Shown one piece after another: positions 18,852 through 24,151 of a DNA stretch of 64,000 nt. The notes below the pieces were generated by a model, which had not been told where the DNA came from, did no database searches, and saw only the letters and a list, made by a program, of their open reading frames with translations. The stretch's first letter is position 1, and each line of letters opens with the position of its first letter. Location: positions 592,149 to 656,148 of the forward strand of contig NZ_KI911559.1 in the NCBI RefSeq assembly GCF_000515255.1, given 5' to 3'. This DNA is from Rhodovibrio salinarum DSM 9154. GTDB lineage: Bacteria; Pseudomonadota; Alphaproteobacteria; Kiloniellales; Rhodovibrionaceae. Position numbers and translations under genes: made by a program.

Positions 18852-19031
18852 ATGGCGAACACCAAGCTGAAGGGGCTTGCCAAGCAGGTGGTGGGCGATA
18901 TTCAGCAGGCGTTGGGCAAGCTGACCGGCCGCAAGACCGCGGTTGCCAAGGGCAAGGCCAAGACTGCTGCCGGCACGACCCAGCAGACCGCTGGCAAGAT
19001 TAAGAGCAAGGCGAAGAAGCTGGGGAAGTAG
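18852..19031 (+). CDS. CsbD-like small stress protein
   Basis: A 59-residue, very basic and hydrophilic protein. It consists of two amphipathic stretches, KLKGLAKQVVGDIQQALGKL and AKTAAGTTQQTAGKIKSKAKK in part. This resembles the CsbD family (KGxxKQxxGxxKExxGKLT). Such proteins are abundant under general stress but have no defined activity. AGGAGG sits 7 bases before the ATG, a strong ribosome site. GCTAG at 18826-18830 may be a -10 element, giving a very short leader. It converges on nrdJ. It is short enough to be missed by a 60-residue cutoff. Confidence 0.75.
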   Translation: MANTKLKGLAKQVVGDIQQALGKLTGRKTAVAKGKAKTAAGTTQQTAGKIKSKAKKLGK

Positions 19032-19131
19032 TGACCCTGCGAGGTTAACGTAAGATGGGGGGCCTCGCGATCGGTTTCCCCGTTACGGGTGTGCGGGCGC
19101 GTCCGCTTTAAAAGTCTCGTGCGCGGCCCGA

Positions 19132-21465
19132 TCATGTGCAGGTCGAGTGGCCGCAGGCGGTGCAGATCTCGCAGCCTTCCTGCTGTACCACAGCCGCTTG
19201 GCCGCAGCGTGGACACTGCCGGGGCGGGGCGGCGCCGACGGCCTGACGCAATGCCTGCTGAGCCTTTTCGCCGGTGATGTTTTGCCGGTCCGGCAGGAAG
19301 CCGATGTCGATCATGTGCTGTTCGATCACCTCGCCGATCGCCGCGAGCAGCGAGGGCTTGTAGCTGCCGTGCAGCCAGGCGCCGCCGCGCGGGTCGAACA
19401 CCGCCTTCAGTTCCTCGACCACGAACGAGACGTCGCCGCCGCGCCGGAATACCGCCGAGATCATCCGCGTCAGCGCCACCGTCCAGGCGTAGTGCTCCAT
19501 GTTCTTGGAGTTGATGAAGATCTCGAAGGGACGCCGGCGGCCGTCCTGCACCACGTCGTTCAGCGTGATGTAGAGTGCGTGGTCGCTTTCCGGCCATTTC
19601 AGCTTGTAGGTGCGCCCCGGCAGGACCTCCGGCCGGTCGAGCGGCTGGGTCATGTAGACGATTGACGGGTCGCCGCCGTCCGCCGCCGCCGGCTGACGCG
19701 CCGGTGCGGGCTCGTCGGCCGCTGGCGCCGCACCGTGGTGCCCGTCCGCCGGGGTCTGCTGGGGGGCGGACGTTTCCAGTACCGCGCCGGTCACCGGATT
19801 CGGGCGGTAGGTGGTGCAGCCCTTGCAGCCCATGTCGTAGGCCTGCAGGTAGACGTCCTTGAACGCCTCGAAGGCGATTTCCTCGGGCAGGTTGATCGTC
19901 TTGGACACCGAGCTGTCGACGTATTTCTGCACCGCCGCCTGCATCACCAAGTGCGCCGAGGGCGACAGCGTCTGCGCGTCGACGAAGCTGGCCGGCAGGT
20001 CGGCGTCTTCGCCATGCATCTGCCGGTAGAGGCGCACGGCGTAGTCCTGGACCGTCTCGCGCGTCCGGCTGCCGTCCGGCGCCAGGAGGTTGCGGGTGTA
20101 GGCGAAGGAGAAGATCGGCTCCAGCCCGCTGGAGACGTTGTCGGCGAACAGCGAGATCGTGCCCGTGGGCGCGACCGAGGTGACCAGGGCGTTGCGCATG
20201 CCCTGGTCCGCGATCGCCCGGCGCACGTCGGCGTCCAGCCCGCGGATCGTTTCGCCGGCCAGGTAGCGGTCGGCATCGAACAGTGGAAAGGCGCCCTTCT
20301 CCTGTGCGAGCTCGGTGGAAGCAAGGTAGGCGTGGCGCTGCAGCGTCGCCATCCAGCTCTCGGTCGCACTGACGGCGTCCTGCGCGCCGTAGGTCAGGCC
20401 GACCATTGCCAGCGCATCCGCCAATCCGGTCACGCCCAGGCCGATGCGGCGCTTGTCCTGGGCCTCCCGGCGCTGCGTCTCCAGCGGAAAGCGGGAGATG
20501 TCGATCGCGTTGTCCAGCATCCGCACGGCCGTGTGCGTCAGGTCTGCCAGCGCGTCCGTGTCCAGCCGCGCCTGCGCGGTGAACGGTCGTTCCACCAGCC
20601 GGGCCAGGTTGATCGACCCCAGCAGGCACGCGCCGTAGGGCGGCAACGGTTGTTCGCCGCAGGGATTGGTAGAAGATATCGTTTCCGCATACCACATATT
20701 GTTTTTTTGGTTGATGCGGTCGATGAAGATCACGCCCGGTTCGGCGGCTTGGTAGGTCGCGCGCATGATCCGGTCCCACAGCCGGCGTGCCTTGAGCGTG
20801 CGGTAGGTCTCGCCCTGGAAGACCAGCGGCCAGTCGGCGTCCTCCCGGACCGCCTGCATGAAGGCGTCGGTCGCCAGCACCGAGACGTTGAACATGCGCA
20901 GGCGCCCGGGCTCCTGCTTGGCGTCGACGAACTCCTCGATGTCCGGGTGGTCGCAGCGCAGGCAGCCCATCATCGCGCCGCGCCGGGAGCCCGCGGACAT
21001 GATCGTCCGGCACATGGCGTCCCAAACGTCCATGAACGAGACGGGGCCGCTGGCGTCGGAGCCGACGCCGCGCACCGGGGCCCCGCGCGGACGGATGGTG
21101 GAAAAGTCGTAGCCGATGCCGCCGCCCTGCTGCATCGTCAGCGCCGCTTCGCGCAGGTGGGAAAAGATGCCGTCCATCGTGTCCGGCACCGTCCCCATGA
21201 CGAAGCAGTTGAACAGCGTGACGTCCCGCGCCGACCCGGCACCGGCGACGATCCGGCCGGCGGGCATGACCCGGAAGTCCTGCAGCGCGGCGTAGAAAGC
21301 GCGTGCCCAGTCGTCCTGCACGTCCGCCTGTTCGGCCTCGGCGAGCGCCTTGGCGACGCGCATCCAGCTATCTTCCACCGATTCATCCACAGGCGTGCCG
21401 TCAGCCTGCTTCAGGCGGTACTTCATGTCCCAGATACGCTGGGAAATCGGCGCCAGGTCGACCAT
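19132..21465 (-). CDS. nrdJ: adenosylcobalamin-dependent ribonucleotide reductase, class II
   Basis: A 777-residue reductase that makes deoxyribonucleotides with AdoCbl as radical source, with no NrdB partner. Seen are the first active cysteine in LFNCFVMG and the SSTNPCGEQPLPPYGACLLG loop. SVAPTGTISLFADNVS and the long C-terminal part also match. The end has a CPRCG...CEICTACG zinc-finger-like tail with redox cysteines. The ATG at 21465 is chosen because GGAGG lies 8 bases upstream; a GTG at 21480 would place the ribosome site inside the gene. It depends on cofactor from the adenosyltransferase at 10.8-11.3 kb. Its upstream region carries DnaA boxes and GANTC sites. Confidence 0.96.
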   Translation of the reverse strand: MVDLAPISQRIWDMKYRLKQADGTPVDESVEDSWMRVAKALAEAEQADVQDDWARAFYAALQDFRVMPAGRIVAGAGSARDVTLFNCFVMGTVPDTMDGIFSHLREAALTMQQGGGIGYDFSTIRPRGAPVRGVGSDASGPVSFMDVWDAMCRTIMSAGSRRGAMMGCLRCDHPDIEEFVDAKQEPGRLRMFNVSVLATDAFMQAVREDADWPLVFQGETYRTLKARRLWDRIMRATYQAAEPGVIFIDRINQKNNMWYAETISSTNPCGEQPLPPYGACLLGSINLARLVERPFTAQARLDTDALADLTHTAVRMLDNAIDISRFPLETQRREAQDKRRIGLGVTGLADALAMVGLTYGAQDAVSATESWMATLQRHAYLASTELAQEKGAFPLFDADRYLAGETIRGLDADVRRAIADQGMRNALVTSVAPTGTISLFADNVSSGLEPIFSFAYTRNLLAPDGSRTRETVQDYAVRLYRQMHGEDADLPASFVDAQTLSPSAHLVMQAAVQKYVDSSVSKTINLPEEIAFEAFKDVYLQAYDMGCKGCTTYRPNPVTGAVLETSAPQQTPADGHHGAAPAADEPAPARQPAAADGGDPSIVYMTQPLDRPEVLPGRTYKLKWPESDHALYITLNDVVQDGRRRPFEIFINSKNMEHYAWTVALTRMISAVFRRGGDVSFVVEELKAVFDPRGGAWLHGSYKPSLLAAIGEVIEQHMIDIGFLPDRQNITGEKAQQALRQAVGAAPPRQCPRCGQAAVVQQEGCEICTACGHSTCT

Positions 21466-21666
21466 CCAGCTCGCCTCCACGCCTGCGTGGGATCGGTGGC
21501 ATTGCCGTCAAACACGCAGTTTCGTGCGGGTCTCGAAACTTTGAGCAGAGTTACCCGACGGCCAGGACGAGTCAAGTTGTGTTCTATAAACGTTCACGCA
21601 ATGGCGTACTTCAAGAGCACGCTTCAAGGCGCTGAGTCGAACAAACTTTTCCCTGATTCCACAAAG

Positions 21667-21699
21667 TTATCCACAGGGCGCCATCGCCCGCGTGGATAA
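21667..21699. promoter_or_regulatory. pair of DnaA boxes upstream of nrdJ
   Basis: TTATCCACA at 21667-21675 is a perfect DnaA box. TTATCCACG, one mismatch, is at 21691-21699 on the other strand. A third near-match (TCATCCACA, 21383-21391) lies inside the start of nrdJ. The pair lies about 200 bases before nrdJ and just after plsC ends. DnaA binding would fit replication-coupled control of nucleotide supply, known for nrdAB in E. coli. Binding here is inferred. Confidence 0.6.
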
Positions 21700-21720
21700 G
21701 GGGGCAAACCGTGTCGGCTG

Positions 21721-22458
21721 TCAGTGCACCCGGGGCGTGCGGTCGTCCTCCGCGCGCAAACGCTCGCTCGCCGCTTCCAGATCGTCGCCCAGGCGCTGCA
21801 TGAACGCCTTGCGGTCCATTCCAGGTGGGATCGGCGGCTGGAATTCCAGGCGGATCGTACCGGGCACCTTACGGAAGGCCCGGCGTCCCCAATGCCGGCC
21901 GCTGGTCAGCGCCACCGGGACGACTGGCAGCTTGAGCTCGCGGTACAGGGCGGCCACGCCGGGGTGGTAGGGCTTGCTGTCGCCGGGCGCCACACGCGTG
22001 CCTTCGGGGAAGATGATCAGCCGGCGCCCGGTCGCCGTGATCTGCTTGCTTTCGGCGACCATCTTGCGCAGCGTTTTGGCACCGCCGGCACGATCGATCG
22101 CCACGATCCCGTAACGCTGCAGGTACCAGCCGAAGAAGGGCAGGAACAGCAACTCCCGTTTCAGGACGAAACTGGGGTCGTCCAGGATCAGGTTGAAGAT
22201 CAGGGTGTCCCATGCCGATTGGTGCTTGGAGGCGATCAGGCATGGGCCATCCGGCAAGTTTTCCCGCCCGCGGATCTGGTAATCGATGCCGGCGACCCAG
22301 CGCAGCAGCAGCATCACCCCGCGGATCCAGAAGCGCCCGGCCACGATGATCCACCGCCGTGGGACGCCTGGGATCAGCAACACCAGCCCGGGCACATGGA
22401 TGCTCACCGTCCAGACCCAGAAGGCGACGTTGAACGCGAGCGAGCGCAGCAGGATCAT
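21721..22458 (-). CDS. plsC: 1-acyl-sn-glycerol-3-phosphate acyltransferase
   Basis: A 245-residue inner-membrane acyltransferase that converts lysophosphatidate to phosphatidate. The HX4D catalytic motif appears as KHQSAWDT near residue 77. The substrate motif FPEGTR and the PVVPVAL block are also in place. The N-terminus is hydrophobic (residues 2-35). The ATG at 22458 is preferred to a TTG at 22476. It is the last gene of the ftsE-ftsX-ydcF-plsC minus-strand group. Confidence 0.93.
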   Translation of the reverse strand: MILLRSLAFNVAFWVWTVSIHVPGLVLLIPGVPRRWIIVAGRFWIRGVMLLLRWVAGIDYQIRGRENLPDGPCLIASKHQSAWDTLIFNLILDDPSFVLKRELLFLPFFGWYLQRYGIVAIDRAGGAKTLRKMVAESKQITATGRRLIIFPEGTRVAPGDSKPYHPGVAALYRELKLPVVPVALTSGRHWGRRAFRKVPGTIRLEFQPPIPPGMDRKAFMQRLGDDLEAASERLRAEDDRTPRVH

Positions 22459-22510
22459 ATAGCGGGGTCCGGGCAATCGGGGCGGGGATCGACGTTCAGC
22501 CAGGCCCCAC

Positions 22511-23194
22511 CTAGCCGTTGACGCCTGCGGCCTGCAAGGGTCCGACGATCAAGGCGCGGACCCGGGCGACCAGATACTTGCCGTATTCGTCGATCAGCAG
22601 GTGCGCGCTGCCGGGCCAGCGCCACCATTCGTCCTGTTTGACGTGTTCCGGGAAGACCGGATGCGGCACAATCTCGACCTGCGGCATGCGCCGGCGGAAT
22701 TCCAGCAAACTGCGCGGCATGTGGTAGGCGGCCGTGACCAGCCGGACGGATTGGAAGTTCTGACTCTGCACCCAATGCGCGCTTTCCACCGCGTTGCCGG
22801 CCGTCGTCTCCGCCTCATAGCCCAGCGTCACGCAGCAGGTGAGCCAGCGCGGCGCCTGTTGCGAGACGCGCAGCAGTTCGCTCACGTCGACGCCCTTGTA
22901 GACACCGGAGACGAACAGCTTGCTCGCCCGGCCGCGTTCCAGCAGGCGCAGCCCGGTACTGACCCGGTCGCTGCCGCCGGTCAGCACGACGATCGCATCC
23001 GTTCGGCGCATCGGCTCGGCAACCTTGTCGGGTAGGTTGGTGACGAACCCGAGGAACCCGAGGACCAACGCGCCCAGAAGGACGCTCGCGCTCAGGGCGA
23101 CGGTCAGCAGGAGACGCCGCCGGCCCCGCGGCATGCGGCGGGGCAGCGATTCTGGCCCTTCCTGATGCTGTTCGTCGTCCAGCGTGCCCGCCAT
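22511..23194 (-). CDS. YdcF/ElyC-type DUF218 membrane protein
   Basis: A 227-residue protein with a basic N-terminus, one membrane helix (about residues 28-52) and a periplasmic DUF218 domain. The domain shows DAIVVLTGGSDRVSTGLRLL, LFVSGVYKGVD and VTAAYHMPRSLLEF (in part), the usual family pattern. Relatives such as ElyC and SanA act in envelope integrity; the chemistry is not settled. The ATG at 23194 is chosen; a GTG at 23224 would add 10 residues. Its place between ftsX and plsC supports an envelope role. Confidence 0.85.
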   Translation of the reverse strand: MAGTLDDEQHQEGPESLPRRMPRGRRRLLLTVALSASVLLGALVLGFLGFVTNLPDKVAEPMRRTDAIVVLTGGSDRVSTGLRLLERGRASKLFVSGVYKGVDVSELLRVSQQAPRWLTCCVTLGYEAETTAGNAVESAHWVQSQNFQSVRLVTAAYHMPRSLLEFRRRMPQVEIVPHPVFPEHVKQDEWWRWPGSAHLLIDEYGKYLVARVRALIVGPLQAAGVNG

Positions 23195-23257
23195 CGTCCT
23201 GTGCCTGCTGTCGGGAGTCGCCACAGTCTTGTCCCGACACCCTAACCCTGGAAACGC

Positions 23258-24151
23258 TTAACTAAGTTTAGCGAGTGTACGCAGCACCGTAACCCGGGCC
23301 GTGATCATCGCCACCCCGGTGGTCGCCAGCGGCACGCCGGCGAGTGCGAACCATTGCAGTTGGCTCAGCGTCAACTCGGGCACGATCGCGCCGGTTTCCT
23401 GCCCGACCCATTGGGCGAGCGCCCCCAGCGTCGCCGCCGCCAGGCCGAGGCCAACCAGCCCCCCGGTCAGCCCGAGGCGCAGCGCATGGCGCTGGAACTG
23501 TCGGGCGACGTAGGCATCGTGCGCGCCGATCAGGTGCAACAGCTCGATCACATTGCGGTGAATCGACAGGCCGGTGCGGGTAACGAACACGACCGTCACC
23601 ACTGCCGCCGCGCCGACCAACGCCACTACCAGCACCGCCAATAGCTGCAAGGTCCGCGCAACCTCCAGCAGCCGGCCCAGGGTGCGCTGGTGATCGTCGA
23701 CCCGCGTGCCGCTGGCGGCTTCCGCCAGGCGGCGTTGCAGCGTGGCAAGTTCGGGCGTCCGGTCGGGGGCCACCTCGACCGCGATCAGCGCGGGCAGAGG
23801 CAGATCGGTGCTGCTCGCCGCCTCACCCAGCCAGGGGGCGAGCAGTTCGGTCATCTCCGCGCGTCCCAGCTGCTCTGCGCTGCGCACGCCTGGCGTCTGG
23901 CGCAGAACGTCCAGCACGGCGTCGACCCGCGCGGTCTGGCCGCTAGCCGCCGAATCCGCAGGTGGCGGGGGGATCTGCACCGTCAGTTTGCCGGCGAGCG
24001 CGGTATCCCAGGCCTGGCTGACGTTGGATACGGCGATCGCCGCGGCCAAGGCCAGGGTCGCCAGATACACCATGAAGGCGATCAGCCAGGGCAGGAAACG
24101 GGCGCTGGCATCCTTATTCAGTGGGACGTCGCGTTGGCGGGCGAGGATCAC
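23258..24151 (-). CDS. ftsX: cell division protein FtsX
   Basis: A 297-residue permease-like partner of FtsE with four membrane helices: one near residue 25 and three in the C-terminal half. The periplasmic loop lies between the first and second helices. The pattern VDDHQRTLGRLLEVARTLQ and IHRNVIELLHLIGAHDAYVARQF (in part) fits FtsX. With FtsE it activates periplasmic peptidoglycan hydrolases during division. The start is GTG. It lies 41 bases after ftsE. The sequence is more diverged than FtsE, as is normal. Confidence 0.92.
   Translation of the reverse strand: MILARQRDVPLNKDASARFLPWLIAFMVYLATLALAAAIAVSNVSQAWDTALAGKLTVQIPPPPADSAASGQTARVDAVLDVLRQTPGVRSAEQLGRAEMTELLAPWLGEAASSTDLPLPALIAVEVAPDRTPELATLQRRLAEAASGTRVDDHQRTLGRLLEVARTLQLLAVLVVALVGAAAVVTVVFVTRTGLSIHRNVIELLHLIGAHDAYVARQFQRHALRLGLTGGLVGLGLAAATLGALAQWVGQETGAIVPELTLSQLQWFALAGVPLATTGVAMITARVTVLRTLAKLS

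Follow-up and report, generated by a model that had tools for sequence, protein, structure and literature searches.

Can a B12-dependent ribonucleotide reductase be tied to the start of replication, as is known for class I enzymes? The question is raised by a 64,000-nucleotide stretch of Rhodovibrio salinarum DSM 9154 (contig NZ_KI911559.1, positions 592,149 to 656,148; hereafter the window), where a 240-bp intergenic gap precedes nrdJ, the gene of a short class II (adenosylcobalamin-dependent) ribonucleotide reductase. An initial annotation, made from the sequence of the window, had noticed DnaA boxes and GANTC sites in this region and proposed a link of the gene to replication start and adenine methylation. 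Our analysis suggests that the gap is the promoter region of nrdJ and that it would hold two control layers. In the upstream layer, DnaA would bind an exact box cooperatively with a degenerate tandem box, and perhaps also an inverted box, so that nrdJ transcription would respond to the state of the initiator protein, in the manner of Escherichia coli nrdAB. In the downstream layer, LexA would occupy a GTTC-N7-GTTC repeat, set against the -35 hexamer, and repress the gene until DNA is damaged. Such an organization would couple B12-dependent deoxynucleotide supply to both replication start and repair in a genome where no class I enzyme was found. Control of the nrdJ promoter by DnaA and LexA together is, in our judgement, probable. 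The corresponding sites are present in the window and statistically enriched in orthologous promoters.

The perfect DnaA box TTATCCACA lies exactly where it had been reported, and its inverted copy with one mismatch was recovered as well (CGTGGATAA, or TTATCCACG on the minus strand; Table 1). A third near-copy, TCATCCACA, also exists at its reported position, but it had been counted as upstream of the gene and in fact lies within the nrdJ open reading frame (ORF). Since it falls inside the coding sequence, TCATCCACA probably represents just codons and no regulatory site. On the other hand, the initial annotation had missed a degenerate second box, GATTCCACA, of which the CCACA core is common to relatives while the remainder is not. 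When positions 21481-21720 were subjected to 20000 Markov shuffles, an exact box appeared by chance in 0.075% of them; in 0.005%, it was accompanied by at least two boxes with no more than one mismatch.

To see how far this extends to other promoters of the gene, short-nrdJ loci were collected from the order (61 genomes, plus further stretches) and from named genomes (the best 80 of a larger number). At least 250 bp of upstream sequence was available for 120 loci, and removal of 7 near-duplicates left 113. Excluded were L071 and L103 (N-terminus missing), L070 and L023 (short upstream) and the short nrdJ of genome G016, which starts at a contig edge. All named loci are titled alphaproteobacterial, except L073, titled Proteobacteria only. 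Within 300 bp upstream, the exact TTATCCACA is found at 37 of the 113 loci, compared with a mean of 0.16 and a maximum of 1 in shuffled sequences. A box with up to one mismatch is present in 54 upstreams (3.98 in shuffles), and 11 carry at least two such boxes (0.10 shuffled). The exact boxes come from 9 of 41 loci of the order and 28 of 72 from named genomes; the latter comprise 11 of 28 Rhodobacterales loci, a group assigned from the titles of the sequence records, and 17 of 44 others. Of the first positions listed for exact boxes, all except one are situated 110-270 bp ahead of the nrdJ start. In an intergenic-only control, where the other gaps separating predicted ORFs at these loci served for comparison, 69 nrdJ gaps (11,782 bp) held 13 exact boxes versus 1 in 145 other gaps (24,765 bp). 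The remainder of the 37 lie in stretches called coding by a crude ORF picker, such as the end of plsC. Finally, a k-mer enrichment that presupposes no motif returned pieces of the DnaA box among its top words, TTATCCACA occurring in 36 of 100 upstreams versus 8 of 2264 background windows.

These counts bear directly on the simplest alternative, namely that the boxes are chance matches in an AT-richer gap. The box of the window is one of only 8 genome copies of the exact 9-mer, and a reversed control pattern has 12; the box is therefore not enriched across the genome as a whole, as chance would have it. However, the box counts in orthologous upstreams (37/113, with 0.16 in shuffles) speak against this explanation, which is rejected for the promoter class and looks highly improbable overall.

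A second draw over the phylum allowed the range of the box to be assessed. Among 41 alphaproteobacterial genomes with a match, 36 were used; left out were the own genome and G004 (already counted), G091, G134 and G198. Exact boxes occur in 5 of these 36 upstreams versus 0.02 expected; 25 of the 36 stem from one family, genome G006 was already in the earlier set, and the draw may overlap the named genomes. Outside Alphaproteobacteria, none of 12 class II genes from 10 genomes has an exact box and one has a box with one mismatch (0.66 in shuffles), gene starts being roughly extrapolated in this group. Since the box is found in 5 of 36 upstreams inside the class and 0 of 12 outside, it appears to belong to alphaproteobacterial nrdJ promoters, in which its distribution is patchy.

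The arrangement of the boxes is informative as well. The exact and the degenerate box of the window form a TGTGG-N7-TGTGG tandem, present as TGTGGATAACTTTGTGG. The same register is shared by 15 of the 113 upstreams, the window included, whereas any other spacing from 3 to 11 is found 0-2 times; the opposite orientation, CCACA-N6-CCACA, as in roseobacters, has 6 occurrences. A 12-bp register suggests side-by-side binding by two DnaA molecules. By contrast, the inverted arrangement of the window is, by the pattern used, common to just 1 other locus of the 113. This last point is relevant for another explanation, in which the inverted pair is not a protein site at all but acts as an RNA hairpin, serving to terminate or protect the plsC transcript. 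Indeed, TTATCCAC and GTGGATAA pair perfectly, and the region 21665-21705 folds better than shuffles on both strands (z -2.55 and -2.88). Nevertheless, a T-run is lacking, no terminator-like site was found in 21300-21900, and inverted pairs occur at 2 of 113 loci, as opposed to 23 of 113 for the tandem arrangement. As the inverted arrangement is not common to relatives, reading the pair as a hairpin terminator was dropped, and we consider a hairpin function very unlikely.

The packing of boxes in a gap that is relatively AT-rich (55% GC versus 67% for the whole window) could also evoke a replication origin. However, the presumed oriC is elsewhere on the contig, at about 373.4-373.9 kb, 240 kb away. 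There, three DnaA boxes with one mismatch (about 373463-373655; L003) are situated between ppsR-like and hemE-like ORFs, named by eye, a context that we take to be the usual one for an alphaproteobacterial oriC. An origin in the nrdJ gap was rejected for this reason and is next to inconceivable.

The downstream layer was absent from the initial annotation. Between the DnaA boxes and nrdJ, the minus strand carries GAACGTTTATAGAAC (GTTCTATAAACGTTC on the other strand), a match to GTTC-N7-GTTC, the direct repeat that constitutes the LexA consensus of Alphaproteobacteria. This exact pattern is present in 28 of the 113 short-nrdJ upstreams, compared with 0.94 in shuffles. As a positive control, it was recovered in 26 of 31 lexA promoters, and the genome's own lexA promoter carries it as GAACCAAAGTAGAAC. 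A matrix derived from lexA promoters gives a score of at least 8 to 32 of the 113 nrdJ upstreams versus 0.6 in shuffles. The operator also tends to precede a TTGA: the nrdJ strand of the 113 upstreams has 23 GAACN7GAAC sites, TTGA follows within 14 bases in 18 of them, and a degenerate operator followed by TTGA is found in 43 of 113 upstreams versus 0.13 shuffled. In the window, the putative -35 hexamer TTGACT occupies precisely such a place, and a putative weak -10 region can be proposed downstream (Table 1). On an NrdJ tree (100 proteins, FastTree; state changes were compared with those of shuffled labels), the LexA-pattern state changes 15 times versus a shuffled mean of 31.0, so this pattern is better conserved than the DnaA box. 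We lean, with some reserve, towards a LexA layer at the nrdJ promoter of this window. Exact DnaA boxes also occur in 3 of the 31 lexA upstreams (0.06 shuffled; loci L119-L148 and L181), and DnaA may thus touch lexA too.

Table 1. Features of the nrdJ region (positions in the window)
Feature	Position	Strand	Remark
Exact DnaA box TTATCCACA (TGTGGATAA read on the nrdJ strand)	21667-21675	+	sequence match
Inverted DnaA-like box CGTGGATAA (TTATCCACG on the minus strand)	21691-21699	-	1 mismatch
Degenerate second DnaA box GATTCCACA	21655-21663	+	12-bp tandem register with the exact box
Near-copy TCATCCACA	21383-21391	+	within the nrdJ coding sequence
LexA-type (SOS) operator GTTCTATAAACGTTC	21581-21595	-	GAACGTTTATAGAAC on the minus strand, GTTC-N7-GTTC
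Putative -35 hexamer TTGACT	21570-21575	-	5 bases after the LexA-type operator
Putative weak -10 region, TAACTC or AACTCT	21547-21553	-	16-17 bases from -35; proposed from sequence
GANTC site GAGTC	21569-21573	strandless	
GANTC site GAGTC	21634-21638	strandless	
GANTC site GATTC	21655-21659	strandless	inside the degenerate tandem DnaA box
nrdJ, short class II (adenosylcobalamin-dependent) ribonucleotide reductase	19132-21480	-	782 aa as listed ORF
plsC-like acyltransferase gene	21721-22476	-	PF01553; TIGR00530 below cut-off

Other reductase genes were then compared. The genome has two large-chain reductase genes, both of class II: the short nrdJ and a long NrdJ gene at 2070252-2073957 of the contig. 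No class I beta chain (PF00268) was found in this genome or in two other genomes of the family. Elsewhere in the order, 45 genomes have PF00268, and 20 of them, picked for spread, served as a class Ia sample; nrdA was taken, with no family scan, from matches of roughly 30%, which mostly lie next to the beta-chain gene, and the region between -300 and +60 relative to the farthest in-frame start was searched. The LexA pattern is present at 16 of these 20 nrdA genes (0.15 in shuffles), a DnaA box with up to one mismatch at 14 (0.97) and an exact one at 5 (0.03).

The recurrence at nrdA matters for a further explanation, according to which the boxes would serve as a DnaA reservoir or titration site, placed in this gap by coincidence and not regulating nrdJ. 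In E. coli, datA and DARS are such sites for DnaA. Inverted and tandem boxes packed in one short gap would suit a reservoir, as would the distance of about 240 kb between the nrdJ locus and the presumed oriC. However, a reservoir would not need to track reductase genes, whereas exact boxes sit before nrdJ, DnaA-like boxes recur before nrdA, and neighbouring gaps are almost devoid of them (1/145). A reservoir without regulation of nrdJ is in our opinion quite unlikely. A place that could serve as one exists at 3706223 and 3706255 of the contig (L006): a direct repeat of two exact DnaA boxes, spaced by 32 bp, between two predicted ORFs whose 3' ends face each other.

The long nrdJ allowed genomes with and without class I to be compared directly. 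The comparison covered 44 of the 61 genomes; G041 (only 10 bp upstream), G048 (no match) and G025, among others, were left out. G044 and G049, which belong to the same genus as six class-I-lacking genomes and yet have class I, are also outside it. The LexA pattern is absent before the long nrdJ in all 44 genomes. An exact DnaA box precedes this gene in 7 of 15 genomes without class I versus 0 of 29 with class I, and a box of up to one mismatch in 12 of 15 versus 5 of 29. Because six of the seven exact cases belong to one genus, the boxes were recounted by genus: exact boxes are then found in 2 of 9 genera versus 0 of 13 (p = 0.16), and boxes of up to one mismatch in 7 of 9 versus 3 of 13 (p = 0.027). 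Moreover, since five of the 15 genomes are under 90% complete, the absence of class I may be a mere gap in some of them; when only genera in which some class-I-lacking genome reaches 90% completeness were kept, the figures were 5 of 6 versus 3 of 13 (p = 0.041; the 13 unfiltered, counts by hand). Collectively, these data are suggestive of boxes before the long nrdJ mostly where class I is absent. For the short nrdJ, a tie between the box and the absence of class I was considered and discarded, there being no association (exact boxes in 2 of 7 versus 7 of 36). The own long nrdJ has two DnaA boxes with one mismatch, at 2069817 and 2069879, ahead of a small open frame and the gene itself; in the family mate G059 (L290), a one-mismatch and an exact box are found at a comparable place before the long nrdJ.

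Several of our results weigh against two-layer control or limit its generality. As to DnaA, 76 of the 113 upstreams have no exact box and 59 have none of up to one mismatch, the second draw gave only 5 of 36 exact, and the two other genomes of the family are without any box of up to one mismatch before the short nrdJ. For the exact-box state, the NrdJ tree requires 26 changes, close to the shuffled mean of 29.2 (minimum 22). Nor is the box exclusive to reductase genes, since 3 of 31 lexA upstreams carry one, and in four of the 14 nrdA genes with a DnaA-like box (G003, G004, G009, G011) the only box is 14-51 bases past the farthest possible start and is possibly coding. As to LexA, the site of the window scores 0.3 bits on the lexA-promoter matrix, where lexA sites score 17.8 to 39.5; the pattern has a 1.6% chance of arising in the nrdJ gap, and it is not enriched genome-wide (105 versus 106 in the control). 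In addition, a simple scan of the nrdJ region for a sigma-70 consensus promoter found none.

Other observations temper these objections. Loci that carry a box with no more than one mismatch do cluster on the tree, with 25 changes of state versus a shuffled mean of 33.8 and a minimum of 27, and one of the two family mates has an exact box before the long nrdJ. Since presence takes 25 changes against 33.8 and exactness 26 against 29.2, the presence of some box seems to be inherited to a degree while exactness is not, exact boxes turning over fast. Conservation in relatives, suggested as a check in the initial annotation, is thus partial: exact boxes at 37 of 113 loci and the clustering of the one-mismatch state speak for it, but both family mates lack the box before the short nrdJ and the exact state is near random. 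The proposed tie of nrdJ to replication start through DnaA is supported by the enrichment (37/113 versus 0.16), the 13 boxes in nrdJ gaps versus 1 in 145 others and the 12-bp tandem, but the exact box remains patchy in relatives. Informative pairs were too few to correlate the DnaA state with the LexA state on the tree. On balance, the site statistics, on which any function is predicted here, are strong for the promoter class and moderate for this promoter. We infer from them the binding of DnaA and LexA, the sign of the DnaA effect, the position of the promoter and the cell-cycle and damage responses.

The second half of the initial proposal concerned adenine methylation. The three GANTC sites announced before nrdJ all exist, and the supposed rarity of GANTC holds: the window contains 115 versus 259 expected, a more than twofold depletion. 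Such depletion is expected in a genome with CcrM-type methylation. The genome does encode a GcrA homolog as well as a RAMA-domain DNA methylase of the N6/N4 type (PF01555 plus RAMA), CcrM-like by eye and presumably specific for GANTC. It could be, then, that GcrA and CcrM control the gene, the methylation state of GANTC timing nrdJ transcription and the DnaA boxes being secondary. The nrdJ gap has 3 sites versus 0.74 expected from its own composition (P = 0.039; 5000 shuffles). Depletion in the relatives' loci is strong in coding parts (0.32 of expectation) and weaker in other gaps (0.56, or 0.60 if 5' of an ORF), and it is not seen in nrdJ gaps (1.22 to 1.34). Dividing the nrdJ ratio by that of other gaps yields about 2.0 for GANTC, compared with 0.6 to 1.1 for seven control motifs; the ratio is 1.30 in long-nrdJ upstreams and 0.74 in lexA upstreams.

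However, an absolute excess before nrdJ had to be discarded, since the 113 upstreams (300 bp) hold 129 GANTC versus 127.2 expected. The gaps of the window are in general undepleted (22 sites in 24 gaps versus 14.3 expected, three other gaps holding 3-4 each), and the comparison with other gaps was devised after the fact. The positions of the sites are not fixed among nrdJ upstreams, except within close roseobacters. On the tree, the state of having at least two GANTC takes 21 changes, within the range of the shuffles (mean 26.0, minimum 20). What stands of the methylation claim is hence the lesser depletion relative to neighbouring gaps (1.22 versus 0.60), and neither an absolute excess nor fixed positions. 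Taken together, the sites hint weakly at methylation control of nrdJ, and control primarily by GcrA and CcrM is unlikely. In the roseobacters L087, L093, L105, L111 and L115, a GANTC is located exactly 20 bp past the start of the DnaA box; since these sequences are related, the spacing perhaps reflects mere shared descent. Six Rhodobacterales loci (L082, L087, L093, L098, L109, L111) show ATATTGTA words shortly past DnaA-like boxes, possibly an NrdR site. An nrdR gene was found in the genome, and the window was scanned for the NrdR box (consensus ACACWATATWTWGTGT) as a further candidate, with no match at up to 3 mismatches.

As to the gene itself, NrdJ scores 588.9 bits with the profile TIGR02504 (NrdJ_Z; cut-off 399.95) and has the barrel, all-alpha and TSCPD domains of Pfam. 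Because many homolog matches begin at residue 6, and an ATG was confirmed there in the sequence, the true start is likely this ATG (21465-21463, codon 6), with the GTG at 21480 as the alternative. The upstream border of the gap is the end of the plsC-like gene, beyond which follow a DUF218 gene and FtsX-like and FtsE-like genes, the last two below NCBIfam cut-offs. A search of 18900-24000 for Rfam RNAs, including the cobalamin riboswitch, returned none at E up to 1. The genome is a single contig of 4,176,524 bases, in which dnaA-type and lexA genes were both found.

How do these findings relate to known systems? E. coli nrdAB is under DnaA control, as the initial annotation stated: in PMC8203912, its promoter is described as DnaA-regulated with three boxes, one specific for DnaA-ATP, and DnaA regulation of reductase genes is also proposed for Bacillus subtilis and Caulobacter. 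The nrdJ gap resembles this case in having DnaA boxes ahead of a gene for the same reaction. It differs in that nrdAB is class Ia and nrdJ a B12-dependent class II gene, and in its organization: an exact box, a degenerate tandem and an inverted copy, with an added LexA-type operator and with DnaA binding as a prediction. Closer in phylogeny is Caulobacter crescentus nrdB, an alphaproteobacterial reductase gene that is named as a direct, DnaA-activated target (PMC3193534). There too, however, the gene encodes a class I subunit. Caulobacter also has NrdJ (PMC6538847), for which the accessible text makes no statement about DnaA. E. coli uvrB, controlled jointly by DnaA and LexA (PMC6015884), offers a likeness in that both regulators, predicted in our case, meet at one promoter region; uvrB is, however, a repair gene with overlapping boxes, whereas those of nrdJ are about 60-70 bases apart.

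As regards LexA, the nrdJ gap shares with the alphaproteobacterial LexA regulon the GTTC-N7-GTTC repeat seen in lexA promoters (26/31), but nrdJ goes unnamed in the main text of a Dinoroseobacter shibae LexA paper, where ribonucleotide, reductase and nrd do not occur (PMC6473078). Other sources, as far as their accessible portions go, have little to add: DnaA comes up once in a reductase review of 2014, in connection with the class Ia enzyme of E. coli (PMC4009431), nrdZ is induced anaerobically without a LexA link (PMC6472365), reductase is mentioned only as the hydroxyurea target (PMC4211646), and PMC1839093 mentions neither ribonucleotide nor nrd. Within the searchable literature, which excludes most subscription papers, no DnaA or LexA control of alphaproteobacterial nrdJ was found. 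Given a class II gene in a genome where no class I beta chain was found, the novelty seen earlier in a B12-dependent reductase under such control stands as far as searchable papers go, where no class II precedent was found. DnaA control of class I reductases being known, what would be new here is the class II gene with a probable LexA operator.

A wider possibility, which we put forward only tentatively, is that DnaA, together with LexA and perhaps methylation by CcrM, makes up a portable module kept at whichever reductase supplies replication. If this were true, the module would be found at class Ia nrdA where that enzyme is present and also at class II genes, it would be gained by the otherwise box-poor long nrdJ upon class I loss, and control would follow the reaction rather than the gene family. 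Comparing genomes with and without class I would test directly whether regulation follows function from one reductase gene to another. If class II reductases share this coupling, replication control, damage response and B12 supply would converge on one promoter in organisms without class I.

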